IMG/VR virus record: IMGVR_UViG_3300021478_000036
Location: 1 to 54,389 of that record
DNA from: a virus
DNA length: 54,389 nucleotides
Direction: 5' to 3' (one strand)
The translations under genes and the position numbers were made by a program. Positions 980-53,100 of the stretch are shown here, piece by piece. A model generated the notes under the pieces. It saw only the letters and a list, made by a program, of their open reading frames with translations. It was not told the origin of the DNA and ran no database searches. Every line of letters starts with the position of its first letter. Within the stretch, counting starts at the first letter, position 1.

Positions 980-3723
980 TAAGCTTTCCTCAACTCCTTC
1001 ACACTCGTTGCCATCTTAAGATGCACAACATTTACTTGACCTTGAAGTTCAAGTTCCCACAGAGTAGCCTTAAACCCATCTGGTATCAATAGAACCTCTT
1101 CGTTCCTTAGTATTTCCTTTACCATTACAAACCTATCATCTGCATACACTCTAATGATTAACCATTGCGTAGCAGGATCAAAGACTTGATCTTGAGAAGT
1201 ATTTCTTGTCATAGGTATAATAGTTACTTCTGACGGTACATCAAATATAATCTTAATGGCTTTGAACGATGCTGGAAACGCCATACGAAACGGTTTGGAC
1301 TCCCACGTCCAATCCCATAATGTAGTAGTACCCGGATTAGCTACTGGTGGGTTCCACTGCATTACTCTGCCATCACTTAATATCTCAAACAATTGACCTG
1401 ATATCTCATCGAAATACATATTCTCAACTGTAGTAGAAAAATGAAGATAAGTAAATGAAGTATTCTTGTCCTCTTTATCTAGGACAAAACCATGTAGTAC
1501 TGCTCCATCAGGATCAACATCAATTAATCCTGTACCTCTTATAAAAGCCACATAGTTTAATCCGAAATGTCCAGCAGCCCAATTCCAAGGCTGTAACGTA
1601 TTGTGAAACTCTTTTTCATAAACAAATTCAGTTATACTTACAGTGCCGCTAGAGTTCAGCAATATAATGCCGTTAGGTGAAGCATAGTAAGCGCCTTCAC
1701 CAGATGACACTACACTGCCCCTACTAATACATGGCTCATTGGATGATATTCTACCAATAGTCATCGTATCAGGAGTAACACCAGTAGCAATGAACGGTGT
1801 TCCTTTACACATGATGTTTAAGGAAGCACCATTTGCAGTTAGTCCCACAATTGGATAATCCACTGTGAGAGCATAAGAAGCAGGCCAAGCGTGAGGCAGA
1901 TAAGCAGCACTGAACCATATCTCCCGTTCGTTACTCCACCCTGCGGCTATACCATTTGCCATCATCACTACCCCCTGAAGATCAATGGGGGGTGCTGTAT
2001 AAAGCTCGCTTGACAGTGGAGAATTAAAAACGACATCCTGTGGCAACGCCGAGTCACTATAGTTAGTTACTCCGGTCGGAAACGGAGGTCCAAACTCTGT
2101 CACTTGATAGTACGATGCATTGCCAGAACTATCAACGACAGTACGATATAAGCGTACTTTGGCTAAATTTCGGTTGGTTGTAATACCAGCAGCGGGAGCA
2201 GGTATAGTTATTGTCCACGTACCAGTAGGATTTCCTGTTTCATTTGTCGGCGGACTAGCTGCACCCTCTTCACCATATGCACTAACGTATGTATAAACAT
2301 ATGCTCTGTTCTCAATATCAGTAACATCAAACTGAATTTGATCACCAACCAACACACCGGCACCAGCAGTAGGCGCGGTTATATTAACCGTTGTTGTGTT
2401 TACTACCCCTTTAGTATCAATCTGTGTAGCTATGGGAAACACTATATTTTGGAATTGGATGCTATCACCAGCACCAACACCACTGCTAGCTACATCTTGG
2501 CTCATCGTAACCTTAAGCCCTGATACACTAGCCACTGTAGTATTAACAATAAGTGCTGCCGAATTTGTAACATCCGTAATTGTCATACCAGCAACAATGC
2601 CAGTAACACTATTCATAGCTAAAGTATTAGGGGATGTGGCTCCACATTGTATTGCATCTCCAGCATTAACAGTACTAGCTACGTTTGCACTTAAAGTAAT
2701 TTCGCTTCCTGAAACAGCAATTATAGTAGTACCAGCAGTAATTGAAGATGGGTTTGAAAGATTTGCAACTGCCATGCCAACTGTAGCACCAGCAGTATTA
2801 CTTAATACTAAAACATTAGGCGGAGGGGATTGGAAATTTATTGCAGTACCTGGAGGTATAAGAGCAGCCATATTTTGGCTTAAAGTAATATTAATTCCCG
2901 ATACAATACTCACGAAAGTACCAGTAGGGATCGAAGATGGATTTGATGGATTTATAGGTATCATACCTTGTGTGATACCAGCACTACTAGGTACAGTTAA
3001 GTACGGAGTACCAGCAGGCGCTCCAACAGTTATTGATTGAGTTATTACAGTTGGAACTAAACTAGTAGAAGTAATAGCTGAGTATGTCGGCGTAATCGAA
3101 TTTGGATTAGTAGCAGCAGTTGTCGTATGTGTTACTGTAGTGGCAGTCTTATCTGTGATAGACATGCCATCGCTAAGATCGGTAGTATTATTAAGAGTTA
3201 ATGTTGTGCCGCCAGCAGGAACGGCAGCAGTAGCCGTTTTTGTTAGGGTTGTTGGTGCCGGTACAACAGTAGGAGCAACAGTAGGAGTGGGGATACCAAT
3301 GACCAACATAGGCCCAAGTGTATTAGTTGCCGGATCATATGTTCTGTATTGAGGAGGTGGCTTTATAGTAGGCCAATCTGGATTATCACCAGTTGAAGCA
3401 TACTGATCAGATGGGAAAAAATAATACCTATTCCATTGATCCCCAACAACGGGGTTGCGTATTACAGCCATATATGGATCAGGAAACTCTAACCATTTGG
3501 AAGCAGAAAAATCAGGGGGTTCAGCAACACTTTCCGGTATACGATACACTTGCTGCGTGTCACTATGGATAGTTGTGTAGACCTGAAGAGCCTGCCGAAA
3601 CCCTCTAACGCCTCCCTTGTAGAGCCATGTATTTTTCGCATACTGCGCGTTTCTATCGGGAAGGAGTATTCCATCCCGAAGTGGCATCATACCAGAGAAA
3701 TCTTGTATAGTAATTACAGACAT
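979..3723 (-). CDS. Large tail protein, tail-tubular-B-like, with internal repeats
   Basis: A 914-residue protein. The N-terminus (FSGMMPLRDGILLPDRNA, then a K-G-G-x-R-G-F-R run) resembles the opening of tail tubular or tail needle-hub proteins of podoviruses, which recognise a list of virion genes by a similar start. Residues about 232-425 hold three tandem copies of a 60-68 residue Thr/Val/Ser-rich unit with the pattern NPSSI, VSG, TLS and AGD-x-I. These probably form beta-rich decoration domains. The C-terminal half (from about 440) has Trp- and Tyr-rich stretches typical of a beta-propeller-like tail hub. It follows a 67-residue gene with no gap. The role is inferred from position and N-terminus only. 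Confidence 0.6.
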   Translation of the reverse strand: MSVITIQDFSGMMPLRDGILLPDRNAQYAKNTWLYKGGVRGFRQALQVYTTIHSDTQQVYRIPESVAEPPDFSASKWLEFPDPYMAVIRNPVVGDQWNRYYFFPSDQYASTGDNPDWPTIKPPPQYRTYDPATNTLGPMLVIGIPTPTVAPTVVPAPTTLTKTATAAVPAGGTTLTLNNTTDLSDGMSITDKTATTVTHTTTAATNPNSITPTYSAITSTSLVPTVITQSITVGAPAGTPYLTVPSSAGITQGMIPINPSNPSSIPTGTFVSIVSGINITLSQNMAALIPPGTAINFQSPPPNVLVLSNTAGATVGMAVANLSNPSSITAGTTIIAVSGSEITLSANVASTVNAGDAIQCGATSPNTLAMNSVTGIVAGMTITDVTNSAALIVNTTVASVSGLKVTMSQDVASSGVGAGDSIQFQNIVFPIATQIDTKGVVNTTTVNITAPTAGAGVLVGDQIQFDVTDIENRAYVYTYVSAYGEEGAASPPTNETGNPTGTWTITIPAPAAGITTNRNLAKVRLYRTVVDSSGNASYYQVTEFGPPFPTGVTNYSDSALPQDVVFNSPLSSELYTAPPIDLQGVVMMANGIAAGWSNEREIWFSAAYLPHAWPASYALTVDYPIVGLTANGASLNIMCKGTPFIATGVTPDTMTIGRISSNEPCISRGSVVSSGEGAYYASPNGIILLNSSGTVSITEFVYEKEFHNTLQPWNWAAGHFGLNYVAFIRGTGLIDVDPDGAVLHGFVLDKEDKNTSFTYLHFSTTVENMYFDEISGQLFEILSDGRVMQWNPPVANPGTTTLWDWTWESKPFRMAFPASFKAIKIIFDVPSEVTIIPMTRNTSQDQVFDPATQWLIIRVYADDRFVMVKEILRNEEVLLIPDGFKATLWELELQGQVNVVHLKMATSVKELRKA
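2054..2069. promoter_or_regulatory. Operator-like palindrome (one mismatch)
   Basis: TCACTA-TAGT-TAGTTA. Inside the 914-residue tail protein gene; the coding frame reads T-N-Y-S-D. Confidence 0.6.
3560..3575. promoter_or_regulatory. Operator-like palindrome (two mismatches)
   Basis: TCACTA-TGGA-TAGTTG. Near the start of the tail protein gene; the frame reads T-I-H-S-D. Confidence 0.5.
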
Positions 3724-6836: not shown

Positions 6837-8060
6837 TTACGTCCTCGTCACTAAAATAGTGAGGCTGACGTCAGCCAGCGTTGCATCCTGTGTGGCTGGC
6901 GCAACCATTTGAAGTATATCGCCTACCACTAATATCCCTCCGCTACCTGCCAATGTAACTGATGTATGGCTTGCTGGTGTAACGGTCAGAGTGCCTATTG
7001 CAGTAGTCACTCCAGCACTTATTTTGTTCAAAGTAAATGCTGCGTTTGCCGTTGCTTGCGTACTATCATATACTAATGCACCAGCAAGATTAGCGGGGAC
7101 ATTAATTCCTATTGGCATTGGTACGTTAATGACTTGACTTGCGGGCGGTTTCCCCGGATAAATAAAAGGTATCGGAACAGGAATAACTACCCAAGTAGCA
7201 TTCTTACGCCCATATATATTATTATCAATTGGTGCTTCTGGAACACCTGAAGGCGGTATTATTCCTGATTCAGTAAGCACAGCCCATTGGTTGTTCATCC
7301 GCCCCCAAACTTCACCATCATTGGGAGCGTCAACTTGAAGAGGGTCAGGTATCCAACCACCATTATTACGGACATATATCTTACCATCAGAGGTAGCATC
7401 AACTTGAATAGGATCAGGTATCCAATTAGCATTCCTACGACTGTAAAGAGTGCCATCAAGTGGCGCATCTATAACATAACTAGTTGTAGAGTTACTAAAA
7501 CCAATCTCCTCCCAAAAATAATTGATGCCATTTGTTGCCCATTCATACAATAAATTGTTATTTGTATCAAACCATTGATCTAATACATGTTGACCAGTCG
7601 GCGGGTCTGGACCCCAAAAATATCTAATATTAGTACTAACGACTGCACTTCCGGGTAGCAAGCTAACAACTGGAGGTATAGATGCATCACATGCAGATTT
7701 CGATGGCATATTAATTGTTAATATATCATCCCGCGGAATTGTTGAACCGACAATCTCAGTTGCTATTACAATGTTATATTGTTGTCCATCAATACCTCCC
7801 GAAATTAAAAACGAAAGAACAGTACCAGTTGCATTTAATATTGGATCGGTCAAGAACAACGGTGGATTAGTTTCGGCATCAGCAGTAAAATTATATGTCT
7901 CAATAACATGTCCAGCCAATATAGTAGTAAAATCTAAAATAACTAAAATTTGGTCTGAAACTTTTTTAACTATAGGGCCAAACTGTTTTGTGCTGTCTGC
8001 ATAAAAATATGCAGTACGATTGTTTACTGTACCAGCAGGAAGAAGATAATTAGATGTCAT
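6837..8060 (-). CDS. Tail fibre-like protein with D-x-x-Y-x-R-x-N-x-x-W repeats
   Basis: A 407-residue protein. Its first 190 residues are a diverged copy of the start of the 286-residue protein encoded at 9024-9884 ([13 protein letters not shown] against TAYYYVNSTNKMG, and [14 protein letters not shown] against DRWYNLIDHVWYDY). Residues about 195-300 carry four short repeats of the form DAPxDGxxYxRxNxxW, a motif common in phage fibres. The C-terminal 100 residues are a separate beta domain. GAGGA precedes the ATG. It is the product of duplication with its neighbour and probably forms part of the fibre or its attachment platform. Confidence 0.6.
6848..6862. promoter_or_regulatory. Operator-like palindrome, perfect arms, 3-base spacer
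   Basis: TCACTA-AAA-TAGTGA near the end of the 407-residue fibre gene. The different spacer length puts the arms in a different frame. Confidence 0.65.
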
Positions 8061-11040: not shown

Positions 11041-11056
11041 TCACTATCCTTAGTGA
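11041..11056. promoter_or_regulatory. Operator-like palindrome, perfect arms, upstream of adaptor gene
   Basis: TCACTA-TCCT-TAGTGA. On the minus strand its centre AAGGA is the ribosome binding site of the adaptor gene, so binding or folding could control translation. Confidence 0.8.
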
Positions 11057-12220: not shown

Positions 12221-13288
12221 CTAACGAATGCGACCCTCTCTGGCAGCTTGAAATAGCTGTGCCTCAAGAGCCGCCTTGTCAGCGTCACGGCCCGTATACA
12301 TACCCTTGGTAACATCAGCATAAAATTTAGTGATGTCATCACGGGTAATATACGGTTGATCAGGGGGCGTAACTGGCTGCCCTGATTTTGCCCGACCCGG
12401 CGCTGCAAGGCTTTGTAGTTCAAACTGTGGGGGTGGTGAACGGTCTACACCATTACCATTGCCCGCAGTTGGTTGCAAATTCCCAGCAGGGTTAACGGCG
12501 GCTCTCTCTTGTCTATACCCCTTTATGATGTTAAGGACACGGGAAGCTTCATTATTCCGGTGTGCTTCAGCTAAGAGGTCTTTACGCACTCGACCTGAGA
12601 ATGGATCTACATTCGCAAGCCAACCAACGAACTCTTGGTCATGATTGGTTACTTCCCAATCAGGTAATTCACGATCTAGAGTATCGTAAAAACGCCCAGT
12701 AGCATCTTGGGTGACAACATTACGGACGCCACCTACAGTCTGCTTGAGCTGTGCATTCTCTTGCATCAATTGATTAACAGCTTGACTAAGTTTTGCAATC
12801 TCAGGACCAACAATCTCCATAGTCCTTCGACCCATTATATCAAGTACTTCGTTACCGTACTCCTGTCGTTCTGTATCAGAAATAAGCTTAGGCTGAACAA
12901 CTGGTTGATGAACTGGCTGACCACCACCAAATCTTGTATCACTTGATGGACCAAATTGAGAAGGGGCAGGTGGTGCGGCAGGAGGGCCAGCAGACATAGC
13001 AAGCAATCGTTGTAGCTCAGAAATTTGTTGTGACTGCTGTCTAGTTCGAGCTTCAGCGGCATCATACCGCCCTTTCATAGAATTAAATCTGTGTTCCCAA
13101 CCGGGGTCTGACGGTGGACCTTCGGAAATGTCACTAACGTTAGTGACCGAGGCCGCACCATTTCCTCTTGAACCGGGGGGCGGCGGGGGTCTAAGTGTAG
13201 CAGCAATCTCATTAGCCCGAGCGGCCGCATCCTGCACTTGTTGAGGTATTCTTACATTCGGGTCTGGATGGTTTGATTGATCGTTCAC
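12221..13288 (-). CDS. Scaffold-like protein
   Basis: A 355-residue protein starting at GTG, with the upstream gene stop overlapping (GTGA). It is rich in Pro, Gln, Asn and charged residues, with a predicted coiled coil at about 70-95 and a helical part at about 150-185, and low aromatic content. It lies directly before the major capsid gene. This place, size and composition are those of capsid scaffolding proteins, which guide head assembly and then leave. A regulatory palindrome at 13131-13146 is inside the gene, in a disordered linker. Confidence 0.65.
   Translation of the reverse strand: MNDQSNHPDPNVRIPQQVQDAAARANEIAATLRPPPPPGSRGNGAASVTNVSDISEGPPSDPGWEHRFNSMKGRYDAAEARTRQQSQQISELQRLLAMSAGPPAAPPAPSQFGPSSDTRFGGGQPVHQPVVQPKLISDTERQEYGNEVLDIMGRRTMEIVGPEIAKLSQAVNQLMQENAQLKQTVGGVRNVVTQDATGRFYDTLDRELPDWEVTNHDQEFVGWLANVDPFSGRVRKDLLAEAHRNNEASRVLNIIKGYRQERAAVNPAGNLQPTAGNGNGVDRSPPPQFELQSLAAPGRAKSGQPVTPPDQPYITRDDITKFYADVTKGMYTGRDADKAALEAQLFQAAREGRIR
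13131..13146. promoter_or_regulatory. Operator-like palindrome, fully symmetric
   Basis: TCACTA-ACGT-TAGTGA, symmetric over all 16 bases. Inside the scaffold gene; the frame reads T-N-V-S-D. Confidence 0.75.
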
Positions 13289-15019: not shown

Positions 15020-15377
15020 TCAACACTCCTATAATTCTATTAATTGTTTCAGTAATCCTTTTACATACAGGAACAAATGCATGATAATCCATACTAGAAC
15101 CTATTTGCGGTATAGGTTCAACATCGAACTCCTTTTGAAATATAATAAGATTTATAGCTTGAATGCATGGCCGAAGGAATGTCATCGGCATACGTTCATC
15201 ACAATTACCTTGAGCTGGCACTTTAACAGGTGGAGCTTCAAGTCCAAACGCAAACTCAATAAGCTCATTAATTTTATTACAAATACCCGCCACTATCTCT
15301 GTGCGCGCAGAGATACCGCAATCACTATGGATAGTGATCTCAAGTGGTGGTGGGAAATTGCGTTCCCAAATACTCAT
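15012..15377 (-). CDS. Hypothetical protein
   Basis: A 121-residue protein with mixed helix and four cysteines spread through the chain (C-G-I, G-I-C-N, Q-G-N-C, P-C-I, V-C-K). It starts inside the end of the Ig-like gene and overlaps the lectin-like gene by eight bases, so it is part of the same unit. It carries a perfect regulatory palindrome at 15322-15337. No family is recognised. Confidence 0.5.
   Translation of the reverse strand: MSIWERNFPPPLEITIHSDCGISARTEIVAGICNKINELIEFAFGLEAPPVKVPAQGNCDERMPMTFLRPCIQAINLIIFQKEFDVEPIPQIGSSMDYHAFVPVCKRITETINRIIGVLNG
15322..15337. promoter_or_regulatory. Operator-like palindrome, perfect arms
   Basis: TCACTA-TGGA-TAGTGA inside the 121-residue gene; the frame reads T-I-H-S-D, the same peptide as at 3560. 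Confidence 0.75.
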
Positions 15378-15906: not shown

Positions 15907-16185
15907 TTAACCTTCCTGAGATTCTTTCCCGCTTATGAATGGGACTTTCTTACCAGCATGTCCCTTGCCAAACATATGGCCTGAGCCACCTTCAGCATAG
16001 CGAACGTCTTTACCATAAGAGCCTTCACCCTTACGTTCAGCCTTCTCGCCCGAAGCACCACCATTATCGGTTTTACCCGATTGGCCCGGAATAACTTCAT
16101 GTGCAGTACCACGACCAAACATAGAAGTTTTACCACCCTGAGCAAAGAAGTCAGGACGGTCTGATTGTTTATCCACTCGACCCAT
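15907..16185 (-). CDS. Small Gly/Lys-rich protein with internal duplication
   Basis: A 92-residue disordered basic protein. It contains two related units, SMFGRGTAHEVIPGQSGK and HMFGKGHAGKKVPFISGK, so it arose by internal duplication. AGGAG precedes the ATG. It lies after the portal gene with another Gly-rich small gene. The repeated M-F-G-(R/K)-G motif may be a binding peptide for the head or nucleic acid; no function is known. Confidence 0.5.
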   Translation of the reverse strand: MGRVDKQSDRPDFFAQGGKTSMFGRGTAHEVIPGQSGKTDNGGASGEKAERKGEGSYGKDVRYAEGGSGHMFGKGHAGKKVPFISGKESQEG

Positions 16186-16496: not shown

Positions 16497-16512
16497 TCAC
16501 TAACGTTAGTGA
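16497..16512. promoter_or_regulatory. Operator-like palindrome, fully symmetric, after portal stop
   Basis: TCACTA-ACGT-TAGTGA directly beyond the portal TAA, upstream of the Gly-rich small genes. Confidence 0.8.
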
Positions 16513-18865: not shown

Positions 18866-18912
18866 TAGCCGCCACTTTTTAAACTTTTAGTGGTGCCGCA
18901 TACTGGTTTTAC

Positions 18913-18940
18913 AGTTTACTCTCTTTGAAAATTAAGTCAA
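18913..18940 (-). promoter_or_regulatory. Sigma70-like promoter before the portal gene
   Basis: On the minus strand: TTGACT, 16 bases, TAAACT. The -35 is preceded by AAATCCTA, the same upstream sequence as at several rightward promoters. It lies in the only gap (18866-18964) between the portal and the genes above. Confidence 0.55.
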
Positions 18941-18964
18941 TAGGATTTTAAAATAGTCGAAAAT

Positions 18965-21502: not shown

Positions 21503-21518
21503 TCACTATAGTTAGTGG
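21503..21518. promoter_or_regulatory. Operator-like palindrome next to tRNA-Tyr
   Basis: TCACTA-TAGT-TAGTGG. Its last three bases are the CCA end of tRNA-Tyr; the other side leads to the 100-residue gene. Confidence 0.65.
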
Positions 21519-25044: not shown

Positions 25045-25059
25045 TCACTATTATAGTGG
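25045..25059. promoter_or_regulatory. Operator-like palindrome over a leftward -10
   Basis: TCACTA-TTA-TAGTGG with a 3-base spacer. It covers the TATAAT of the leftward early promoter. Confidence 0.75.
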
Positions 25060-25077
25060 TTTCGCCGGGCCTGTCAA
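25050..25077 (-). promoter_or_regulatory. Strong sigma70 promoter with operator over the -10
   Basis: On the minus strand: TTGACA, 16 bases, TATAAT, close to the ideal. The -10 lies inside a TCACTA-N3-TAGTGG palindrome (25045-25059), so a protein bound there would block the polymerase. Confidence 0.8.
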
Positions 25078-25597: not shown

Positions 25598-25626
25598 TTG
25601 ACAAGTCACTGACAATAGTGTACAGT
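25598..25626 (+). promoter_or_regulatory. Early rightward promoter with operator in the spacer
   Basis: TTGACA, 17 bases, TACAGT, preceded by ATCCTA. The spacer contains TCACTG-ACAA-TAGTGT, a variant of the dispersed palindrome, ending at the first base of the -10. It drives the first rightward gene at 25655. Confidence 0.75.
25606..25621. promoter_or_regulatory. Operator-like palindrome in a rightward promoter spacer
   Basis: TCACTG-ACAA-TAGTGT, between -35 and -10 of the early rightward promoter. Confidence 0.65.
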
Positions 25627-26513: not shown

Positions 26514-26641
26514 GCAATAAGCCTATTAATAAATACCACATACGCTCATTACTCACTATATTTAGTGATTGCGGGCTTAATCAGTTTGAGTATTTAATGC
26601 TTGAGTTACGTTACATATGGGAGGAACTAAAGTGGATATAG
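26510..26641 (+). CDS. Small protein, 43 residues
   Basis: ATG overlaps the stop of the zinc-ribbon gene (ATGA). Helical sequence (MSNKPINKYHIRSLLTIFSD) ending in W-E-E-L-K-W-I. A perfect palindrome at 26553-26568 lies inside, and the stop overlaps the start of the next gene. No function is known. Confidence 0.5.
   Translation: MSNKPINKYHIRSLLTIFSDCGLNQFEYLMLELRYIWEELKWI
26553..26568. promoter_or_regulatory. Operator-like palindrome, perfect arms
   Basis: TCACTA-TATT-TAGTGA inside the 43-residue gene, before the membrane protein gene; the frame reads T-I-F-S-D. Confidence 0.75.
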
Positions 26642-29129: not shown

Positions 29130-29158
29130 TTGACAAACCAAAAATAAGTCACTATGAT
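29130..29158 (+). promoter_or_regulatory. Strong rightward promoter with the -10 inside a palindrome
   Basis: TTGACA, 17 bases, TATGAT. The -10 is the centre of the perfect palindrome at 29149-29163. It drives the 409-residue gene through a 60-base leader with a small hairpin (GCTAGCAAAAGCTAGC). Confidence 0.75.
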
Positions 29159-29163
29159 AGTGA
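29149..29163. promoter_or_regulatory. Operator-like palindrome, perfect arms, over a rightward -10
   Basis: TCACTA-TGA-TAGTGA with a 3-base spacer. It contains the -10 TATGAT of the promoter for the 409-residue gene. Confidence 0.8.
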
Positions 29164-29217: not shown

Positions 29218-30447
29218 ATGGCAAAGTTTGGTCCCCCGAAAGCTAAAGGTCTCTTCAATCCTGCCGCTCCCCCCAAGCGTGTCTTAACGGCACAAGAGGC
29301 AGAGAACGTTCTTACTACTCCTGCACCAGAGCCGGAGGTTGAAGAGGACACGGATGTCACTACAGATAGTGAGGATACCGATCAGGATATTGCTGACGAG
29401 GTATTCGGCTCTGAGGATGGTGAGGATGAGGAGGGTGAACCGTCTGAGGATGACGTAGAGGAAATTGCTGATAAGCCCACTAAACCAGCAGTTACTGCCA
29501 AGACTGGCAAGAAGCAGGGCAGTAATCTCTCTCCCGAACAGCAGAAGTATTTCGACGAGATCGGCAAGTTGGGTATTGACCAAGGGAAGGGTGTCAGTTC
29601 CTTAATTTTCCTTGCTGAGAAGATGGTGTCTATTGGCGCCAGTGGCACCTTTGAGAGTTCGCAGATTAAGGATTTGTATTTGCACTTCCGTAAGAACTCT
29701 AATAGTGCAGCCGGTAAGAATGCCGAGGTTGGCGACCAAGACCACACTGTGGTTTCCAACACTTCTAAGCTTCGATCCTTCTATAAGGTTGGTGAGAAGC
29801 ACGGCACTCCAGGTTGGTCCAAGATGTTGAAGGTCGCTAGAGACATTCACGTCAATATCTTGCGCTCCAAGGACGATAGGAAGAACCTCCGTAGTAAGCA
29901 GTTGGTGCCGACTTACGAGGCTCTTGTCAAAGTTGCTTCTACGCAAATGAGGACAGAGAAGGATGCGAAGGGTGTTGCACATCCTGTGTATCCTAACCTG
30001 TTGGACGAGACACAAATTCGGGAGATCTTCATTGACCCGAATAAGAAGGAGGCTGAACCCACAGTTACCGATGTTATCAAGGCCGCGGCAAAGGCTATTG
30101 AGCGCGTCATTCGTGGTAAGGTCAATCCTGACAATAGTGAGCAGACCCGTGAGGCGTTTGAGTCGCCAAAGGATGGAGAGGATGACGAGAGTGTCGGTTA
30201 CGCTCTTGTATCTTCGTTGACTTGGATGCTTCAAGCTGGTGAGCGTTTCCAGACAGGGTTTATCGCTAACCGTGAGAAGGAGATTGCAGACGCTAAGGCT
30301 CTTGCCGAGGAGCGCCATAAGAAGCATGAAGAGCGTATGGCTAAGGAAGAGGCTGAACGCCAAGCTCGCAAGGCTAGGAAGGAAGCTGAAGCTAAGGCCA
30401 AAGCTGCTGAAGCTGCTATGGCTAAGGAAGCAGTTGCTGCTAAGTAA
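29218..30447 (+). CDS. Acidic/Ala-Lys-rich protein, unknown, likely abundant
   Basis: A 409-residue protein. The N-terminal 110 residues are strongly acidic and disordered (EDTDQDIADEVFGSEDGEDE). Residues about 110-330 form a globular helical domain with basic patches. Residues about 330-409 are a long Lys/Ala/Glu coiled coil. Its codons look GC-richer than neighbours. It has its own strong promoter and strong terminator, so it is probably made in quantity. A DNA-binding or DNA-protecting role is possible. No family is recognised. A palindrome sits in the acidic part. Confidence 0.55.
   Translation: MAKFGPPKAKGLFNPAAPPKRVLTAQEAENVLTTPAPEPEVEEDTDVTTDSEDTDQDIADEVFGSEDGEDEEGEPSEDDVEEIADKPTKPAVTAKTGKKQGSNLSPEQQKYFDEIGKLGIDQGKGVSSLIFLAEKMVSIGASGTFESSQIKDLYLHFRKNSNSAAGKNAEVGDQDHTVVSNTSKLRSFYKVGEKHGTPGWSKMLKVARDIHVNILRSKDDRKNLRSKQLVPTYEALVKVASTQMRTEKDAKGVAHPVYPNLLDETQIREIFIDPNKKEAEPTVTDVIKAAAKAIERVIRGKVNPDNSEQTREAFESPKDGEDDESVGYALVSSLTWMLQAGERFQTGFIANREKEIADAKALAEERHKKHEERMAKEEAERQARKARKEAEAKAKAAEAAMAKEAVAAK
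29357..29372. promoter_or_regulatory. Operator-like palindrome, perfect arms
   Basis: TCACTA-CAGA-TAGTGA in the acidic part of the 409-residue gene; the frame reads T-T-D-S-E. Confidence 0.7.
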
Positions 30448-31114: not shown

Positions 31115-31130
31115 TCACTAACGATAGTGA
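31115..31130. promoter_or_regulatory. Operator-like palindrome, perfect arms, in a leader
   Basis: TCACTA-ACGA-TAGTGA. The right arm runs into GAGG, the binding site of the coiled-coil gene, and the promoter lies 30 bases upstream. Confidence 0.8.
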
Positions 31131-33449: not shown

Positions 33450-34816
33450 TGGAAACGTTTGCATCCCCATTAGTTGGTGAAGCCAACAAGTGGAAGCAGT
33501 TAGAACTGTCTCCACGTCATGCTAAGAGTTGGGAGGATTGTAAGACTGCGATACTGTATTCTTATGGAGCATTCGGAGGAATACTCTATAAGATGATGCA
33601 AACGGACAATGGTGAAAAGGCTTGGTTTACGGATCAAATCCCTATTGCCGCTACAGATGATAAGGTACTATACCTTAATCCTTATAGGTTCTTCATCCAC
33701 ACTCTTAAGCAACAGGTGTTCATCAGTTGTCATGAGATAATGCACGCGATACTGAACCATTGCGGTATCTTCCATAAGTACCGTAAGAAGGGTAAAGTTA
33801 CATATCCCGATGGCATGACACTTCCTTATGTTGAGGAAGTAATGCAATGTGCTGGCGACTGTGTTGTTAACGCTATTCTCGTTTATTGCCGTGTTGGTGA
33901 GATGCCCAAGGGCTGTTACTACAAGCCGCACATTGTGCCGCATACAATGGAGTTGCTTGAGGCTTATAGAGTTATATATAAGCACACTCAAGGTGGTAAG
34001 ACATTACCGCCTCAACCAGCACCGGGACAAGGTAGTGGTGATGATGGTGATAGTGATGACCTCACTAACAATAGTGATGATGACGAACAACGTCCATTCG
34101 ATCAACATCTTCCACCCGGTAAAGGTAGAGGTAAGACACCCAACGAGGCTATCGACGAACGTAGTAAAGTAGAGTGGGAAGCTGCTGTTACTGCCGCTAA
34201 ACATACCATGAAAGCAATGGGTGTTGGGTCGTCAGGGATTGATCGTATATTCGGCAAGGTCACTCAGCCGGAATATGATTGGGTGAGTGTACTGCGCCAT
34301 ATCTTCAATAAGACTGTAGGAACAGGTAGACAAACTTGGGAGCATCTTGATCCTGAGTTTGTCATTCGGGGTATTGGCGCACCCGGTAGAATAAACTATG
34401 GTGCTGGTTTTGTTATTGTTGCCGATGATAGTTCTGGCAGCATTGACGATGCTATGCTCAGTACATTCATGGGTCATACTGGCGTCATCATTGACGATGT
34501 TAGACCGAAGGAACTACTAATCTGTCAATGTGATGACATGATACATGAATGGCGATATGTGCAAGGTGGTTCAGAACTACCGAAAAAGGTTCTAGGTGGA
34601 GGCGGCACAAGCTTTATACCAGTATTCGACCGTATCGAGAAGGAACAGCTAAAACCTGATGTAGTTGTGTACTTCACGGATATGTATGGGTCATTTCCTA
34701 GTAAACCTCCGTCATATCCAGTGATTTGGGCTAGTATCACACCAAACATTACCGCACCATTCGGTGAGGTTATCTATATACCGTTACAGAAACAACGGAG
34801 AAGTTTCAACTATTAA
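33449..34816 (+). CDS. Metallopeptidase and VWA-like protein (DUF2201 type)
   Basis: A 455-residue protein. The zinc motif HEIMH is at residues 95-99, after a hydrophobic helix, and a later conserved Cys/His region (CAGDCVVNAIL) fits the family. A disordered acidic linker at about 185-230 contains a palindrome (34062-34077). The C-terminal 140 residues form a von Willebrand A-like domain with a metal-binding DSSGS at 327-331. Such two-part proteins are encoded next to MoxR ATPases. It may cut or sequester a host or phage protein when the ATPase is active. Confidence 0.7.
   Translation: METFASPLVGEANKWKQLELSPRHAKSWEDCKTAILYSYGAFGGILYKMMQTDNGEKAWFTDQIPIAATDDKVLYLNPYRFFIHTLKQQVFISCHEIMHAILNHCGIFHKYRKKGKVTYPDGMTLPYVEEVMQCAGDCVVNAILVYCRVGEMPKGCYYKPHIVPHTMELLEAYRVIYKHTQGGKTLPPQPAPGQGSGDDGDSDDLTNNSDDDEQRPFDQHLPPGKGRGKTPNEAIDERSKVEWEAAVTAAKHTMKAMGVGSSGIDRIFGKVTQPEYDWVSVLRHIFNKTVGTGRQTWEHLDPEFVIRGIGAPGRINYGAGFVIVADDSSGSIDDAMLSTFMGHTGVIIDDVRPKELLICQCDDMIHEWRYVQGGSELPKKVLGGGGTSFIPVFDRIEKEQLKPDVVVYFTDMYGSFPSKPPSYPVIWASITPNITAPFGEVIYIPLQKQRRSFNY
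34062..34077. promoter_or_regulatory. Operator-like palindrome, perfect arms
   Basis: TCACTA-ACAA-TAGTGA in the disordered linker of the metallopeptidase/VWA gene; the frame reads T-N-N-S-D. Confidence 0.75.
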
Positions 34817-34894: not shown

Positions 34895-35887
34895 GTGAAA
34901 GAAAGGCAGGGTTCGGATAAAATGTCTGTTTTAAATCCTGCAAACGCCTCCGCTTTTATTCAGACGGTGAATGAGTTCGCTGAGATAACTAAAGAAGCTT
35001 GGGACCAAGTAAACTTAGCCTCTAACAGAACAAGAGCTATGACCGTGAGCAATGCTGTACTGCACTCTAGACTAAAAGATGCGCTAGCTGATAAACTACA
35101 ATCTATCAGAACAAACATGACTTCGCGTTTCATTGTTATGCTACCGTATGACGAAATTCAGAGCATGTTAATGTCACCAGTTACACTTGCTACGATGCAA
35201 ACTGCTGGCAAGCTCATGGTAGAACAATATACGAATTATAGCTATAAGTTAGGAGAACAGGTTACAATTAGGCTTTCGTGCCGTGGTGGCAAGGAGATGC
35301 CAACCATTTTGTTTCCTAATGAAGAACTCACTAACTTTAGTGAGGATTTCCTCGATCTTATACGTCCGTTGTACCTTATTACTAAGTCATGGATGGATGT
35401 TACACTCGCGTTTGAAGCAGTATGCAAACTTGTGCAAGATACGCGCGAGCTTAATTTCTATGTGCCGTGGCTTAGGTTTCTTATTCCTGACAACGATCTA
35501 ACTAATAAATTCAATGCAGCATTCCGCGTTTCACAATGGCTTGATCTTGAAAGAGAAAGACATGCAACTATTGAATTGATAACTCGTCAAGTTAAATACA
35601 TCCTAAATAACGAATATACACCAAAACGTACTTGGATGCCAAGCGAACTTGTGCATATGGTACGGCAAGGAGAAGAATTAATCACTCAATACAATATAAT
35701 GAAACATGTTTCAGTACCTAATACTCATCTTGCGGAGGGCATGGTAGCTGTAGAAGTGATCATAACTGTTAAAGACCATCCAACAATCAAATGGAGTACA
35801 CAAGCGAGTACTTATAAAACAATGAAGGAAGTAGAACGCCTAAGAGCGTTAGATGAAAAGAGGAAGAGGAGTGCTGACGAATGGTAG
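34895..35887 (+). CDS. Hypothetical protein
   Basis: A 330-residue mostly helical protein. The GTG at 34895 has AAGGG six bases upstream; an ATG at 34922 is also possible. It has no clear motif, with a Trp-rich middle (YVPWLRFLIPDNDLTN) and a C-terminal beta part then a basic helix. It overlaps the XRE gene by seven bases. It may be an early protein that acts with the regulator. A palindrome lies inside. Confidence 0.5.
   Translation: MKERQGSDKMSVLNPANASAFIQTVNEFAEITKEAWDQVNLASNRTRAMTVSNAVLHSRLKDALADKLQSIRTNMTSRFIVMLPYDEIQSMLMSPVTLATMQTAGKLMVEQYTNYSYKLGEQVTIRLSCRGGKEMPTILFPNEELTNFSEDFLDLIRPLYLITKSWMDVTLAFEAVCKLVQDTRELNFYVPWLRFLIPDNDLTNKFNAAFRVSQWLDLERERHATIELITRQVKYILNNEYTPKRTWMPSELVHMVRQGEELITQYNIMKHVSVPNTHLAEGMVAVEVIITVKDHPTIKWSTQASTYKTMKEVERLRALDEKRKRSADEW
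35328..35343. promoter_or_regulatory. Operator-like palindrome, perfect arms
   Basis: TCACTA-ACTT-TAGTGA inside the 330-residue gene; the frame reads T-N-F-S-E. Confidence 0.75.
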
Positions 35888-36201
35888 GGTATATCTATAA
35901 GAGCTACAGTTTTGTTGATAAAGACCCCATGATTGATTATATCCGTACAATCATTCATGAGAGTGGGGAAACGCTCACTAAAATTAGTGAGAATAGTGGT
36001 GTTGGTACTCATACTATTAGCAAGTGGTTGTATGGTGAAACAAAGCAACCGAAAGCAGCATCTATCAATGCAGTGTTAAGGGCACTTGGCTACAAGCTAG
36101 AGGTTGTTACCTTCAGCTATAGGACAGAAATTAAGCCAACTTTCCTTAAGGAAGCTAAAGTGTATCACATTCCAGCAAAAGTGGGAGCTAAACATGGTTA
36201 A
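35881..36201 (+). CDS. XRE-family helix-turn-helix regulator
   Basis: A 106-residue protein. Residues about 20-71 match an XRE (Cro/CI-type) domain: SGETLTKISENSGVGTHTIS, then K-W-L-Y-G-E, then INAVLRALGYKLEV. Such proteins bind as dimers to 14-17 bp palindromes with a variable centre, exactly the style of TCACTA-N4-TAGTGA. It carries one such palindrome inside its own gene (35975-35990). It is the best candidate for the protein that reads the dispersed palindromes. That link is inference. Confidence 0.75.
   Translation: MVGYIYKSYSFVDKDPMIDYIRTIIHESGETLTKISENSGVGTHTISKWLYGETKQPKAASINAVLRALGYKLEVVTFSYRTEIKPTFLKEAKVYHIPAKVGAKHG
35975..35990. promoter_or_regulatory. Operator-like palindrome inside the XRE gene
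   Basis: TCACTA-AAAT-TAGTGA, perfect arms. The frame reads T-K-I-S-E, inside the helix-turn-helix of the regulator itself. Confidence 0.75.
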
Positions 36202-38526: not shown

Positions 38527-38555
38527 TTGACAAACAACGTACATAAGAGTATACT
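38527..38555 (+). promoter_or_regulatory. Strong sigma70 promoter
   Basis: TTGACA, 17 bases, TATACT, preceded by AATAATCCTC. It lies in the gap after the polymerase gene and drives the winged-helix gene at 38580 and the recombination genes that follow. Confidence 0.85.
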
Positions 38556-38579: not shown

Positions 38580-38915
38580 ATGCAAATGCCAGAGTTTAAT
38601 TTCGATGTGGACATTCCATCGCTTCGTGAAGCGATTGGGTTGACACATACCGAGGCTAGAGTACTGTTAATGCTAATGCAGGAGGAAATAGCTACGCATG
38701 AGCAGCTTGTTGTTATCAACTCGCGTGTTAGACAACTCATGTATAGTTTAAGGAACAAATTAAGATCGCAAAGCATTAACATCGTAAATGACCGCGATAT
38801 TGGTTACTCGATCCCGCTTAAATATAAGCTGCGTATTAAGAACCTTATCGAGGGTGAATTAGTTGAAGAGATGAATAAGGCTAGAGAGATTTCGGAAAGA
38901 CTACCACATGAGTAA
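38580..38915 (+). CDS. Stand-alone OmpR-like winged-helix DNA-binding protein
   Basis: A 111-residue protein. Residues about 20-85 match the C-terminal DNA-binding domain of OmpR/PhoB regulators: LTHTEARVLLMLMQE, then SRVRQLMYSLRNKL, then IVNDRDIGYSIP. It has no receiver domain. Alone, such domains act as phage transcription factors or regulators of host genes; CtrA-like and GcrA-like factors in alphaproteobacterial phages are a comparison. It has its own strong promoter. An ATG two codons further is also possible. Confidence 0.7.
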   Translation: MQMPEFNFDVDIPSLREAIGLTHTEARVLLMLMQEEIATHEQLVVINSRVRQLMYSLRNKLRSQSINIVNDRDIGYSIPLKYKLRIKNLIEGELVEEMNKAREISERLPHE

Positions 38916-39603
38916 ATTTGCTACAATTAGAGCACCAAAACAGAATTTTAGTTTTACGTGGAGTAAAATTAAGAATTTTGAAACTTGTCCGCGTCGATAC
39001 TTTGAAATTGACGTGGGTAAAAAATTTGAAGAGAGTAGTCCACAGTTAGACTATGGGTTTGAGATGCATGAAGCGGCAAAACAACGTGTTGCAAACAATA
39101 AACCACTTCCTGAGAAATTTGAGATGTTAGAGAAGTGGATACAAAAATTCACTAAAGATAGTGACGATCCTGCTGTAGGTATACAGACGGAATTGAAGCT
39201 TGCTATTGATAAGAACATGAACCCATGCAGTTGGTTCGATAAGAAGACCTATATGCGCGGAGTAATTGATTTTTTAAAGATACGAAAGAAAGTTGCTCTT
39301 GCCGTTGATTGGAAATCGGGTGAGCATAAGGACGATATTATTCAATTAGGTTTATTTGCTCAATTAGTGTTCTCGCACTACCAATGGGTTGAAGCTATTA
39401 AGACTATGTATGTGTGGATTAAAGAGGATGATAGCTCAGAAGAAGATTTATATAGAAAGGATATGCCAGACCTCTGGAATGAAATTAACCCACGGGTAAG
39501 AGCATTAGAAAGAGCGCATGAGTTAGATGATTTTCCCCCTAAAAAAAGTGGGCTGTGTAAAGCTTATTGCCCGGTGGTGACATGCGAACACAATGGAAGA
39601 TGA
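38908..39603 (+). CDS. Cas4/RecB-like PD-(D/E)XK nuclease
   Basis: A 231-residue protein. It starts with the W-S-K-I-K-N-F-E-T-C-P-R-R-Y motif (residues 19-31), has D121 in GVIDF and the DWK core (134-136) in VDWKSG, then a Q at about 146, all features of RecB/Cas4-type nucleases. Four cysteines, C27 and the C-terminal C-K-A-Y-C-P-V-V-T-C, are placed as in the iron-sulfur forms of Cas4 and AddB. It probably trims DNA ends in recombination or replication. It overlaps the upstream gene by eight bases. Confidence 0.8.
   Translation: MSKFATIRAPKQNFSFTWSKIKNFETCPRRYFEIDVGKKFEESSPQLDYGFEMHEAAKQRVANNKPLPEKFEMLEKWIQKFTKDSDDPAVGIQTELKLAIDKNMNPCSWFDKKTYMRGVIDFLKIRKKVALAVDWKSGEHKDDIIQLGLFAQLVFSHYQWVEAIKTMYVWIKEDDSSEEDLYRKDMPDLWNEINPRVRALERAHELDDFPPKKSGLCKAYCPVVTCEHNGR
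39149..39164. promoter_or_regulatory. Operator-like palindrome, perfect arms
   Basis: TCACTA-AAGA-TAGTGA inside the Cas4/RecB-like gene; the frame reads T-K-D-S-D. Confidence 0.75.
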
Positions 39604-42063: not shown

Positions 42064-42079
42064 TCACTAACGATAGTGA
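42064..42079. promoter_or_regulatory. Operator-like palindrome, perfect arms, before the SSB-like gene
   Basis: TCACTA-ACGA-TAGTGA, starting four bases after the previous stop. The right arm runs into GAGG before the SSB-like ATG. The spacer is the same as at 31115. Confidence 0.8.
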
Positions 42080-43285: not shown

Positions 43286-46147
43286 ATGGCAAACTTAGAT
43301 ATAACTAAGGCTCGCAAATATTTAGAGATGCTGGCTCCTATATGTGAGAATGGTTACGTCACAATTCATCGCTTGCGTAATGGGCTACCTGGTAATGCCC
43401 ATAAAACTATTGACAGTGCATTAAAAGATTTAGCATATTGGGTTCAACGTGATGTTGATACATATATGTGTTTATCCGCAACTGAAACAGCTACCCTTAA
43501 CGGTAATAGATATTCTATAGCAGTTCGCAAAAGCGAAAAAGTAATTGGAACAAAAGCACTATGGATGGACATGGATGTTAAGGAAGATGGCTATGCTTCT
43601 CCAAATGAATTGAAGCAAGCACTCAGTAAATTTATGGGTGAGTTTCTTAGCCCAACACTCATAGTAAAGAGTGGTGGTAAAGGAGGTATGCATATTTATT
43701 GGATATGCAATGAGTTCATACTGCCAGATACATTTGATAAGCTATCTAAAGCTCTTGCCGCATTAGCTCGCGAGAAAGGAGTTAAATTTGATAGTGCATG
43801 TACTGTTGATAGAGTACGAGTGCTTCGTGTGCCGGGAACCTATAATTTTAAACACGGCACACCAGATCCTGTTGAAATATTTTACGATAAAGGTAGAATA
43901 TATACGCTCGAGGAACTGGAAACTAAATTAAGCGTGGTCACTAACGTTAGTGATGATGACGAACCCGACGATGTATTGCAGCAACCAAAGAACGAATACC
44001 CGCCATCTGATATAGATCGGGTAGCTACAGTTTGTCCGTTCGTAGCTAAATCACTAGAAGATGGTGGTACTAACCATAATAAAGAAACGCTTTGGACTTA
44101 CACTATAATGTTGGCAAGCTATTGTGCCAATGCTAAAGAGACAGCTATTCGGTTTAGCGATAAACATCCTGCATATAGAGAAGAGGATGTTGTTGCAAAG
44201 CTTCAGTATCATATAGATGATCACAAAGCTCGGCCTAAAGTAGGTCCGCCTAAGTGTGAGACGTTTAATAGTAATGGTGCAGCAGAGTGCAAGACGTGCC
44301 CACATCTTAAACTCAAGCGCAGTCCACTCAATGTTCCCGGTGCCGTTTCTGCTGCTAATTTTAAGCAACCAAGCACTAACAATAGTGATCTACCGCCGGG
44401 ATATTTTCGTGGGAAGGATCAGCATATCTATACAGAGAAAGCAAAAAAGGTAGATGGTATACTTGAAAAACAAACCATTAAAGTATTTCCATATCCTATA
44501 AAAACTGGATCAGCATGGGGAGAACCTAATTGTAATGATTATCATATGCATTTTATAACATATGAAGAAGGAAGTAAAGAGAAAGAAATAATATTACCGT
44601 ACTCTCTCACTAGTGGCGATGAACCTTTTAAACGTACTATGGCTCAACAAGGTATAGCTTTGCCATGGTACACTAAAGATACACGGGAGGCTTTCGTGTC
44701 TTACCAAGAGATGTTACGCAGTAGAGCAGGAGGTATGGTGCGGGGTGAGCCCGTAGGTTGGACTATGAAGAATGGAGAGTTTGATGGGTTTAGTTTTGAT
44801 GGGCAATCCTTCTCTCCTAATAGTCACTGCGTAGTACCTAAACTTAAAGGCGCTTTGCTACAAAATTATAGTCCTATGGGTAGTCCTCAACCGTGGATTG
44901 AAATAGCCCAAGTTATTACTGAACAGCAACGCCCCGGTCTTGATGTGGTATTGTTATCAGGTTTTGCAGCACCACTAGTACCAATGACTGGTCACTCTGG
45001 TATCATACTTGGATGTTATAGTTCTGAAACAGGTATAGGCAAGAGTACATCATTGGAAACATCTACAGCTATATGGGGTCATCCAGTAAACTCACGCTGT
45101 GGGTTGAATGATACAATTAATATGGCAATGAACAAAGCTGGTGCTATTAGACATTTACCACTCAATTGGGATGAAGTTAAAACCAAACAACAGTTTGGTA
45201 ACTTAGCTAGTATAATATTCCAAATGACTGAAGGACGAGAGAAGGGTCGTCTTAATCGTGCATCAGCAGCAATGGATATGAAAGACTTTCAAACCATGTT
45301 AACTTATGCAGCTAATTCATCAGTGCTTGATGCTGTACAAGAAAGTACTAAAGGTACTTCTGCTGGTGTAGTACGCGACTTTGAATTTCGTATACCAACC
45401 TACCAACTCAAATCAAGTTACACAACTGGTGAAGTGCAGAATATGTTGCATAAACTTAAGACTAACTATGGTATGGTTGGGCTTGAGTATGCTAAATATT
45501 TAGGGGAGAACGGTAGAACCATTCATAAGAATGTAATGGACTTACAGAATGTACTTGAAAAGAAATTTAATGTAGGTAGGGATGAACGTTATTGGGCTGC
45601 TGCTATGGCTGTTATACTTTGTGCCGCTAAAATTGTTAATGATCTAAAGTATGCTAGTATAGATATAAATGCTTTATACGGATTTTTAGTAAAAGAGTTT
45701 GTGCGTATGCGTAATAAAAAAGATAGATCACCTACAGATTACACTAAAGAGGATGCACTTATATCAGTATTAGCACAATATCTCTCAATCAATAGAGCAA
45801 ATAATACTATCATTCTAAATGAATTGTGGACTACTGCCGGAAGACCTCCTATTGGTAAGATAGAAATAGAAGGTAGGGGTACATCTAGAGAAAACCAACT
45901 TAGAGAAGTTAATGTAGCAATTGGTAGGGAAGATAAAAGGATACGATTTACAGATAGTAGCCTTAGTCACTTCTGTAGAGAAAGAGATATACCAACTAGT
46001 GCAATAAGAGAAGGATTAAGAAATATATTAGGAGGCACAAATGCTATTAGAAAAATCACAGGAGGTACAGAAATAATATCGGTTAACCAATACTGTTGGA
46101 TAATAGAGCTAGGAGGTACACAGTATGAAAAGAAGTTTGGGTTTTAG
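43286..46147 (+). CDS. Primase-helicase (AEP primase and DUF927-like ATPase)
   Basis: A 953-residue protein. Residues about 90-190 look like an archaeo-eukaryotic primase: WMDMDV with D95-x-D97, SGGKGGMHIYW with H136, and D-R-V-R-V-L-R-V-P-G-T. Residues 324-340 hold a zinc motif (C-E-T-F and C-K-T-C-P-H). Residues about 390-600 resemble the DUF927 region with Walker A SSETGIGKST near 580. The C-terminal part is a winged-helix-like region. It makes primers and unwinds DNA. Two palindromes lie in disordered linkers. Confidence 0.85.
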   Translation: MANLDITKARKYLEMLAPICENGYVTIHRLRNGLPGNAHKTIDSALKDLAYWVQRDVDTYMCLSATETATLNGNRYSIAVRKSEKVIGTKALWMDMDVKEDGYASPNELKQALSKFMGEFLSPTLIVKSGGKGGMHIYWICNEFILPDTFDKLSKALAALAREKGVKFDSACTVDRVRVLRVPGTYNFKHGTPDPVEIFYDKGRIYTLEELETKLSVVTNVSDDDEPDDVLQQPKNEYPPSDIDRVATVCPFVAKSLEDGGTNHNKETLWTYTIMLASYCANAKETAIRFSDKHPAYREEDVVAKLQYHIDDHKARPKVGPPKCETFNSNGAAECKTCPHLKLKRSPLNVPGAVSAANFKQPSTNNSDLPPGYFRGKDQHIYTEKAKKVDGILEKQTIKVFPYPIKTGSAWGEPNCNDYHMHFITYEEGSKEKEIILPYSLTSGDEPFKRTMAQQGIALPWYTKDTREAFVSYQEMLRSRAGGMVRGEPVGWTMKNGEFDGFSFDGQSFSPNSHCVVPKLKGALLQNYSPMGSPQPWIEIAQVITEQQRPGLDVVLLSGFAAPLVPMTGHSGIILGCYSSETGIGKSTSLETSTAIWGHPVNSRCGLNDTINMAMNKAGAIRHLPLNWDEVKTKQQFGNLASIIFQMTEGREKGRLNRASAAMDMKDFQTMLTYAANSSVLDAVQESTKGTSAGVVRDFEFRIPTYQLKSSYTTGEVQNMLHKLKTNYGMVGLEYAKYLGENGRTIHKNVMDLQNVLEKKFNVGRDERYWAAAMAVILCAAKIVNDLKYASIDINALYGFLVKEFVRMRNKKDRSPTDYTKEDALISVLAQYLSINRANNTIILNELWTTAGRPPIGKIEIEGRGTSRENQLREVNVAIGREDKRIRFTDSSLSHFCRERDIPTSAIREGLRNILGGTNAIRKITGGTEIISVNQYCWIIELGGTQYEKKFGF
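43938..43953. promoter_or_regulatory. Operator-like palindrome, fully symmetric
   Basis: TCACTA-ACGT-TAGTGA in a disordered linker of the primase-helicase; the frame reads T-N-V-S-D, as in the scaffold gene. Confidence 0.75.
44373..44388. promoter_or_regulatory. Operator-like palindrome (one mismatch)
   Basis: GCACTA-ACAA-TAGTGA in another linker of the primase-helicase; the frame reads T-N-N-S-D. Confidence 0.6.
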
Positions 46148-46418
46148 CTCACTATTGTTAGTGATGCTTGCAGCACCAGCGGAAAGCAAATGCTATAGTA
46201 GATGGTACTATCCTTATCCTCAACCTCAACCTTGCGGGCGTGGCGAAACTGGTAGACGCATGGCACTTAAAATGCCAGAGCCTAGTGCTATGAAGGTTCA
46301 AGTCCTTCCGCCCGCACCAGAAGATGAAGACCGCTCATGGTATGTAGAGATCACTGCTCTACCACCTGCTTGGGAAAGAGAGATAGCATTAGATAATCTA
46401 AAAGAACAACTGAAATAA
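46125..46418 (+). CDS. Small secreted protein with tRNA-Leu inside its gene
   Basis: A 97-residue protein. It starts in the end of the primase gene after the strong site AGGAGGT, eight bases before ATG. Residues 1-20 are a signal peptide (RSLGFSSLLLVMLAAPAESK). A perfect palindrome is in the signal region. Residues about 37-65 are encoded by the tRNA-Leu gene read in the same direction. The tail after it (RSWYVEITALPPAWEREIAL) again looks like normal protein. The signal and binding site argue that the gene is real. The tRNA part gives a plausible but odd Arg/Pro/Met-rich segment. Confidence 0.55.
   Translation: MKRSLGFSSLLLVMLAAPAESKCYSRWYYPYPQPQPCGRGETGRRMALKMPEPSAMKVQVLPPAPEDEDRSWYVEITALPPAWEREIALDNLKEQLK
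46148..46163. promoter_or_regulatory. Operator-like palindrome, perfect arms, other frame
   Basis: TCACTA-TTGT-TAGTGA directly after the primase stop and inside the signal peptide region; the frame reads S-L-L-L-V-M. Confidence 0.75.
46234..46319 (+). tRNA. tRNA-Leu (TAA)
   Basis: A complete cloverleaf: acceptor GCGGGCG with CGCCCGC, anticodon stem TGGCA with TGCCA around CTTAAAA, T arm GAAGG TTCAAGT CCTTC, and a variable arm of the leucine kind. The anticodon TAA (46268-46270) reads TTA and TTG. CCA is encoded at 46317-46319. It lies inside the 97-codon gene on the same strand. Confidence 0.95.
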
Positions 46419-48692: not shown

Positions 48693-48708
48693 TCACTATG
48701 ATTAGTGA
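48693..48708. promoter_or_regulatory. Operator-like palindrome, perfect arms
   Basis: TCACTA-TGAT-TAGTGA upstream of the Gly/Pro-rich gene. Confidence 0.75.
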
Positions 48709-49127: not shown

Positions 49128-49484
49128 CTACCAACGTCGCCAACTTGATACGGCACCTCCCTTGTTATAGGCTGAAGCTTTAACCCTCCCAGTTATCTTG
49201 TTATCACTATCGCTAGTGACGTCAGGGTCTTTCGCTGCCGCTATACGACCCGCAATCTTAGGAGGGGAAGGGGTAGGGATATCGGCGGAAGCTACTGGTC
49301 CGCCGTCATCATACTTTTTTGTTTTCTTCACAGGTTGATACTCCTCTTTACCTTTAGCTGCTTCACGCTTTTCAGAGAGCATGATAGCAACAGCTTGTTT
49401 CCGTTTTGTGACAGGCGGTCCTTTTGCACTACCGGAGTGCAACTTTCCTTCTTTAAACTTATGCATCACCTCATCGTATGGCAT
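49128..49484 (-). CDS. DUF6496-like basic protein
   Basis: A 118-residue protein with AAGGA before the ATG. The start MPYDEVMHKFKEGKLHSGSA then K-R-K-Q-A-V-A-I-M-L-S-E-K-R is the mark of a small family of phage and bacterial proteins (DUF6496, from memory). The rest is Lys/Gly-rich and contains a palindrome (49204-49219). A nucleic-acid-binding or virion part is likely. The role is not known. Confidence 0.6.
   Translation of the reverse strand: MPYDEVMHKFKEGKLHSGSAKGPPVTKRKQAVAIMLSEKREAAKGKEEYQPVKKTKKYDDGGPVASADIPTPSPPKIAGRIAAAKDPDVTSDSDNKITGRVKASAYNKGGAVSSWRRW
49204..49219. promoter_or_regulatory. Operator-like palindrome, perfect arms
   Basis: TCACTA-TCGC-TAGTGA inside the DUF6496-like gene; the frame reads T-S-D-S-D. 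Confidence 0.75.
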
Positions 49485-49955: not shown

Positions 49956-49971
49956 TCACTATCCATAGTGA
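49956..49971. promoter_or_regulatory. Operator-like palindrome, perfect arms
   Basis: TCACTA-TCCA-TAGTGA, directly after the stop of the DUF3309-like gene. Confidence 0.75.
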
Positions 49972-50164: not shown

Positions 50165-50180
50165 TCACTATCAATAGTTA
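50165..50180. promoter_or_regulatory. Operator-like palindrome at a stop codon
   Basis: TCACTA-TCAA-TAGTTA. On the minus strand it gives the TAA stop of the giant virion gene and runs into GAGGAG of the DUF3309-like gene. Confidence 0.7.

Positions 50181-53100: not shown

Follow-up and report, generated by a model that had tools for sequence, protein, structure and literature searches.

Operators of the 434 and lambda type are promoter-located dyads, similar in length to the palindrome described here; each phage has a few clustered copies, and the regulator gene lies under its own operator. A dispersed arrangement is known from the Cluster A mycobacteriophages (L5, Bxb1 and TipsytheTRex), in which 20-30 operators and stoperators are distributed genome-wide; some occupy promoters, while the majority lie outside them in short intergenic spaces. 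These sites are 13 bp long and asymmetric, follow the direction of transcription and bind a monomeric helix-turn-helix (HTH) repressor, and their spelling varies by subcluster and tracks the repressor (PMC6550527, PMC9283540). In the Cluster O mycobacteriophage Corndog, for which no integrase was detected, 17-bp palindromes of the form TGTTCGG-N3-CCGAACA, with almost invariant arms, occur at more than 30 inter- and intragenic sites; they were reported in 2015 without a function (PMC4351075). The SPbeta repeated element, SPBRE, is present in about ten promoter-linked copies and is read by MrpR, a non-HTH master repressor with a tyrosine-recombinase fold (PMC10516654).

Here we describe a symmetric palindrome, TCACTA-N4-TAGTGA, dispersed over a 54,389-bp stretch of DNA from a soil phage, hereafter the window, which is an entire IMG/VR virus record; as the last gene overruns its right end, part of the genome is probably missing. 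The product of that gene (50178-54389) is a large protein with a weak match to LPD39 (large polyvalent protein), and its relative in the phage RHph_TM27A has an inorganic pyrophosphatase domain. Allowing up to two mismatches, the window holds 44 N4 sites (17 perfect, 21 with one mismatch and 6 with two), against 2.90 ± 1.64 expected from 100 dinucleotide shuffles, of which the largest count was 8; a control of this kind, proposed in the initial annotation, therefore gave nothing comparable. By mismatch class, the shuffles predict 0.0 perfect and ~0.25 one-mismatch copies, while the six two-mismatch sites stand against 2.75 expected, which makes about half of them attributable to chance. Three further copies have a three-base centre, two of them perfect and one with a single mismatch, and 3 and 4 are the only spacer lengths among perfect copies. 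The initial annotation had counted 19 perfect copies and about 45 sites in all, between and inside genes of both orientations: the 19 are the 17 N4 plus the two N3 copies, and its coordinates and its description of both the orientations and the intergenic and intragenic mix are correct.

The refined consensus in the window is (g)TCACTAT-NN-ATAGTGA(c), and positions more than one base outside the arms carry almost no information. Single mismatches fall mostly at the two outer arm bases, and no two-mismatch site has a compensating change in the opposite arm, a pattern that fits protein half-sites and not an RNA stem. A search of the open literature, incomplete in its coverage and hence no proof of absence, found no report of this palindrome family.

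Table 1. Palindromic sites, promoter-like sequences and candidate binding proteins in the window.
Feature	Position	Strand	Remarks
Perfect N4 site	11041..11056	.	immediately 3' of major capsid gene; most position-conserved place of the lineage
Perfect N4 site	13131..13146	.	within gene 12221-13288; position common to G003, G019, G027, G028
Perfect N4 site	15322..15337	.	
Perfect N4 site	16497..16512	.	3' of portal gene
Perfect N4 site	26553..26568	.	intergenic
Perfect N4 site	29357..29372	.	within F29 gene
Perfect N4 site	31115..31130	.	~40 bp downstream of promoter-like sequence 31058-31086
Perfect N4 site	34062..34077	.	
Perfect N4 site	35328..35343	.	
Perfect N4 site	35975..35990	.	within XRE gene
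Perfect N4 site	39149..39164	.	
Perfect N4 site	42064..42079	.	separates two early genes
Perfect N4 site	43938..43953	.	
Perfect N4 site	46149..46164	.	immediately 3' of primase stop codon
Perfect N4 site	48693..48708	.	intergenic
Perfect N4 site	49204..49219	.	
Perfect N4 site	49956..49971	.	intergenic
Perfect N3 site	6848..6862	.	no strong promoter close by
Perfect N3 site	29149..29163	.	-10 box of promoter-like sequence upstream of F29; proposed autoregulatory operator
N3 site, one mismatch	25045..25059	.	-10 box of leftward promoter-like sequence
One-mismatch N4 sites (21)	2054..2069 (first)	.	other starts 3938, 9676, 19083, 20746, 21503, 22497, 24024, 26169, 27736, 28439, 30448, 33079, 36746, 40507, 43216, 44373, 48142, 49526, 50165, 51520
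Two-mismatch N4 sites (6)	475..490 (first)	.	other starts 3560, 14769, 25606, 38356, 52819
N4 site, two mismatches	25606..25621	.	in spacer of promoter-like sequence 25598-25626
Promoter-like TTGACA-16-TATAAT	25050..25077	-	leftward; 12/12 consensus match, the only one
Promoter-like TTGACA-17-TATGAT	29130..29158	+	11/12 consensus match; upstream of F29 (29218)
F29, candidate cognate DNA-binding protein	29218..30447	+	409 residues; disordered acidic N-terminus, helical domain, long C-terminal helix
XRE-type HTH protein	35881..36201	+	candidate of the initial annotation; disfavoured
Winged-HTH protein	38580..38915	+	second-choice candidate

Relatives of the window were collected via the portal protein, which gave 80 related loci in IMG/VR; a megablast search of window positions 1-25000 against cultured phages returned no match. 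The TCACTA motif is common to the close relatives (portal 81-100% identical). Among 28 contigs examined, the window included, 27 carry a dispersed palindrome in a clade-specific spelling, several of the 27 being near-identical and hence not independent cases. The spellings comprise CAACTAT-N2-ATAGTTG in G003 (32 sites), TTACTCC-N1-GGAGTAA in G018 (73 sites), TTACTC-N4-GAGTAA in both G023 and G029 (71 and 66 sites), GTTACCTT-N2-AAGGTAAC in the complete genome of RHph_TM27A, a cultured phage of Rhizobium phaseoli (54 sites), and TCACGCCC-N1-GGGCGTGA in G024 (21 sites). Three genomes are sparse, with 9-14 sites (10 in G025, 14 in G032, and G034). Seven genomes, when shuffled and searched in the identical way, gave 0-5 sites. 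The sole exception among the 28 is G033, the most distant large genome, in which no palindrome family was detected; it has a 101-bp terminal direct repeat and a tyrosine integrase. The initial annotation would have taken a complete lack of the motif in related phages as evidence against it. Distant relatives do lack the TCACTA spelling, yet they bear palindromes of their own, so that the objection holds in letter only.

Three other features of these genomes are recorded here. In G026 (L121, L124) a second palindrome, GTACTGC-N5-GCAGTAC, accompanies TTACCTT-N2-AAGGTAA in seven copies, all in the early part (contig coordinates 1332, 3322, 6667, 8472, 61405, 62270 and 63300). An ATPase gene (31573-32739 in the window) and a gene for a VWA-like protein or putative metallopeptidase (DUF2201; 33449-34816) form a pair in nearly all relatives. 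RHph_TM27A (L163) encodes, at ~16121-37734, small paralogous proteins with an 'ARAMLLG/AMLLG' motif in ~12 copies.

The positions of the sites have been kept where their spelling has not. They were compared in alignments of 16 shared genes from 15 representative genomes, after exclusion of the one pair that shares a motif; similar half-sites occur in some of the remaining genomes. Sites of genomes with different spellings coincided within 12 codons 203 times, against 69 ± 8 for shifted sites, which bears out the conservation of position that the initial annotation had proposed to look for. When only gene-interior sites were considered, a subset chosen so that gene ends cannot produce the coincidence, 45 coincided within 8 codons against 17 ± 4 (0 of 500 randomisations as high), and seven more divergent genomes gave 24 coincidences where 6.7 were expected. 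The clearest of the conserved places lies just 3' of the major capsid gene. Shared places despite different spelling are difficult to account for unless position matters for function and the sites are read in trans by something that changes together with them.

Placement relative to genes and to one another is also non-random. In the window 19 of 43 sites are intergenic, against 5.9 expected (~3-fold), and intergenic enrichment recurs in most genomes, these counts being approximate because the gene calls are mechanical; within 30 bp of a gene end the enrichment is 2-6-fold. Density averages about one site per kb, with early and late genes covered alike. No pair of matrix-defined sites in the window is closer than 200 bp, where 16% would be by chance. 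Under a null that keeps the gene-end preference, spacing is more even than chance (p <= 0.013) in all of 11 genomes but two, G026 and G028.

A few sites coincide with promoter-like sequences. In each of the window's two best sigma-70-type matches an N3 site (25045 and 29149) falls no more than 0.5 bp from the middle of the -10 box, and both perfect N3 copies of G001 likewise lie on promoter-like sequences. Part of the -10 match is inherent in the N3 spelling, which includes TATNAT, but TTGACA at the correct distance is not. Across 16 genomes, overlap with a site is seen for 10 of 35 strong promoter-like sequences, where coverage predicts 1.6; near-identical genomes contribute repeated cases to this count. 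The promoters are consensus matches, which overall are barely commoner than in shuffles. Most of the 44 N4 sites of the window are away from strong promoter-like sequences. Two strong TTGACA-17-TATACT sequences with similar surroundings (30532-30560 and 38527-38555, the second preceding the winged-HTH gene) have no palindrome.

Members of the lineage were also found in two Bradyrhizobium genomes, sp. 139 and SA-3, each ~8 Mb. The sp. 139 phage is integrated. On contig C111 host-like genes give way to structural phage genes; on C166 phage early genes are followed by a large serine recombinase and then by host-like genes, the identities at the host ends having been judged by eye from translations. 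The sp. 139 palindromes, missed by the exact-dyad count, were detected by a weight matrix, which in a relaxed scan found 12 sites in the phage part of C111 and 1 in its host part, and 29 sites in the first 24 kb of C166 and 0 in the following 16 kb. In both whole genomes the strict motif TTACC-N6-GGTAAC occurs solely on phage-carrying contigs, so the reader of the sites is most likely phage-encoded. A tyrosine integrase-like gene was identified by eye on the SA-3 contig. Among the large relatives only G033, which lacks the motif, was found to have an integrase; none was found in the window (no Phage_integrase family), RHph_TM27A or the others, which makes lysogeny unlikely as the only use of the sites and leaves no obvious need for a lysogeny repressor. 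The window has a tRNA-Tyr gene at 21516-21600 (-) and a tRNA-Leu gene at 46234-46319 (+), the latter just 3' of the primase gene, in the place of the SA-3 prophage integrase.

The best candidate for the protein that binds the palindromes is, from comparison of gene content and sequence, the putative DNA-binding protein F29. It is present in the dense-motif genomes (in RHph_TM27A at 18372-19100), absent from the motif-less G033, and unrecognisable in G025, G026, G030 and G032, which have fewer sites. Two structural models (mean pLDDT 65 and 75) are all-helical or nearly so; Foldseek of both against the PDB returned no relatives and no known DNA-binding fold, and no Pfam family was found. Counting the window's N3 operator, 8 of 13 genomes have a site in the ~100 bp before F29, where ~2.7 would be expected; 7 are left without that operator (p = 0.009). 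Three other gene families are preceded by sites as frequently, so the upstream sites are supportive of F29 and not specific to it. Motif distance correlates with F29 distance (r = 0.47), weakly so once portal distance is removed (r = 0.26, p = 0.06, Mantel test). In G024, G025 and G032 the closest site pair lies at the start of a protein of 226-268 residues, without significant homology to F29; the candidate proteins of G025 and G026 match one another weakly. Searches for further F29 relatives in IMG/VR, in cultured phages (with the F29 of the window as query) and in 272 Bradyrhizobium genomes found few. Both Bradyrhizobium prophages have a hairpin shortly before the F29 operator, at ~1845-1880 in L188 and at ~15975-16010 in the BR2 contig (L180), and the two share a similar ACCCTGGA loop.

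Taken together, we consider it reasonably probable that the palindromes are the sites of a phage-encoded regulator, with F29 as the candidate, acting as operators at promoters and as roadblocks elsewhere. An early phage protein, F29 or another, would bind the palindromes, probably as a dimer. At a few promoters the bound site would cover the -10 box and block initiation in the manner of a classical operator, and the operator before F29 would let the regulator repress its own gene. The ~40 other sites, often adjoining gene ends and ~1 kb apart, would most likely serve as roadblocks that damp elongation, as L5 stoperators do. Each lineage would have rewritten its sites together with the regulator while many positions were kept. 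We infer the identity of F29 as binder, repression upon binding and the elongation block at non-promoter sites from the arrangement of sites and genes. The proposal of the initial annotation that these are repressor-type, stoperator-like operators spread over the phage is sustained by the promoter overlap, the conservation of position, the confinement to prophage DNA and the shuffle control; its alternative suggestion of a replication or packaging code found no direct support. More speculatively, F29 might represent a new fold of sequence-specific DNA-binding protein that coats the genome at ~1-kb intervals, a form of viral chromatin or silencing with an address code rewritten by each lineage while many addresses stay constant; we offer this tentatively.

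The even spacing makes an architectural role the main rival to a transcriptional regulator. A nucleoid-like phage protein, binding sequence-specifically at intervals of ~1 kb, would bridge, compact, segregate or protect the genome, and promoter regulation would be a side effect. Mutual avoidance of the sites, over-even spacing with the gene-end preference already in the null, equal coverage of early and late genes, the disordered acidic N-terminus and long C-terminal helix of F29 and the lack of integrases in most members all suit such a protein, but the promoter overlap and the preference for gene ends point to transcription, and the 10, 14 and 21 sites of G025, G032 and G024 would make a poor scaffold; we judge an architectural code unlikely overall. 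If the sites are instead read by a host regulator, lineages that differ in host might differ in spelling for that reason. Such a regulator should have chromosomal sites, yet outside the prophage neither ~8-Mb Bradyrhizobium host has a strict motif, and we reject a host reader as very improbable. An RNA function, as terminators, processing sites or N4-type hairpin promoters, has in its favour that the palindrome can be written as a stem of 6-7 bp closed by a loop of 2-4 bases and that many sites come just after stop codons. Against it, arm mismatches are uncompensated, TTTT follows within 10 nt at only 1 of 38 sites, the flanks of the arms carry no information, no Rfam families other than tRNAs were found, and within 24-44 kb a single terminator-like match is a site; hairpins were rejected on these grounds, and their chance of being correct is negligible.

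The remaining alternatives keep the regulatory reading and change the protein. XRE dimers are compatible with a 16-bp dyad, and the XRE protein of the window, which the initial annotation had proposed as binder, has an HTH with phage-repressor matches. No homologue of it was found, however, in RHph_TM27A, G019 or either Bradyrhizobium prophage (the prophages searched with phmmer only), all of which carry palindromes, and between G023 and G029 the recognition helix changes from GVTTTTLYAW to GVTEGTIRNW although the motif is identical. We accordingly set the XRE protein aside as general binder and regard its ownership of the sites as quite improbable. The winged-HTH protein, or another unrecognised early protein, is an improbable reader as well: winged-HTH relatives occur in 8 separate genomes, RHph_TM27A and both prophages among them, but none was found in the palindrome-bearing G024 and G027, and the 100 bp preceding each winged-HTH gene are free of sites.

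The question posed by dispersed palindromes becomes directly testable in this lineage, which offers many related genomes with different spellings at shared positions, members integrated as prophages, copies that overlap promoters, a candidate for the binder and, in RHph_TM27A, a cultured member. Dozens of sites rewritten in concert with one protein would be a sharp case for the evolution of a regulator-operator network, and for how immunity groups might split.

Compared with the systems described at the outset, the 44 N4 sites of the window resemble those of Cluster A in being genome-wide and mostly off promoters, with some in promoter-like sequences identified by consensus only. They differ in being symmetric, both in the window and in its relatives, more numerous and at least as often intragenic, and no HTH can be recognised in the likely binder. 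As to kinship with the two-domain HTH immunity repressor of Cluster A, F29 was compared with the PDB and Pfam and matched neither. Symmetric sites cannot depend on orientation in the way that L5 stoperators must; since asymmetry and orientation are both lacking, we do not class these palindromes as Cluster A stoperators, despite their similar proposed working. Likewise, the dozens of mutually avoiding sites set the window apart from phages with 434- or lambda-type operators, and an XRE-type reader is disfavoured here. SPBRE and MrpR offer a parallel in a repeated phage element with a single proposed non-HTH reader, although F29 models as helical and without a tyrosine-recombinase-fold match. 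Closest in form are the palindromes of Corndog, for which spelling turnover, promoter overlap and a binder were not reported (PMC4351075). No mycobacteriophage was among the named groups of the portal search, which gives no homology to Cluster O, and no clade here uses the spelling TGTTCGG-N3-CCGAACA; what the two have in common is a symmetric repeat in more than 30 copies, genic as well as intergenic.
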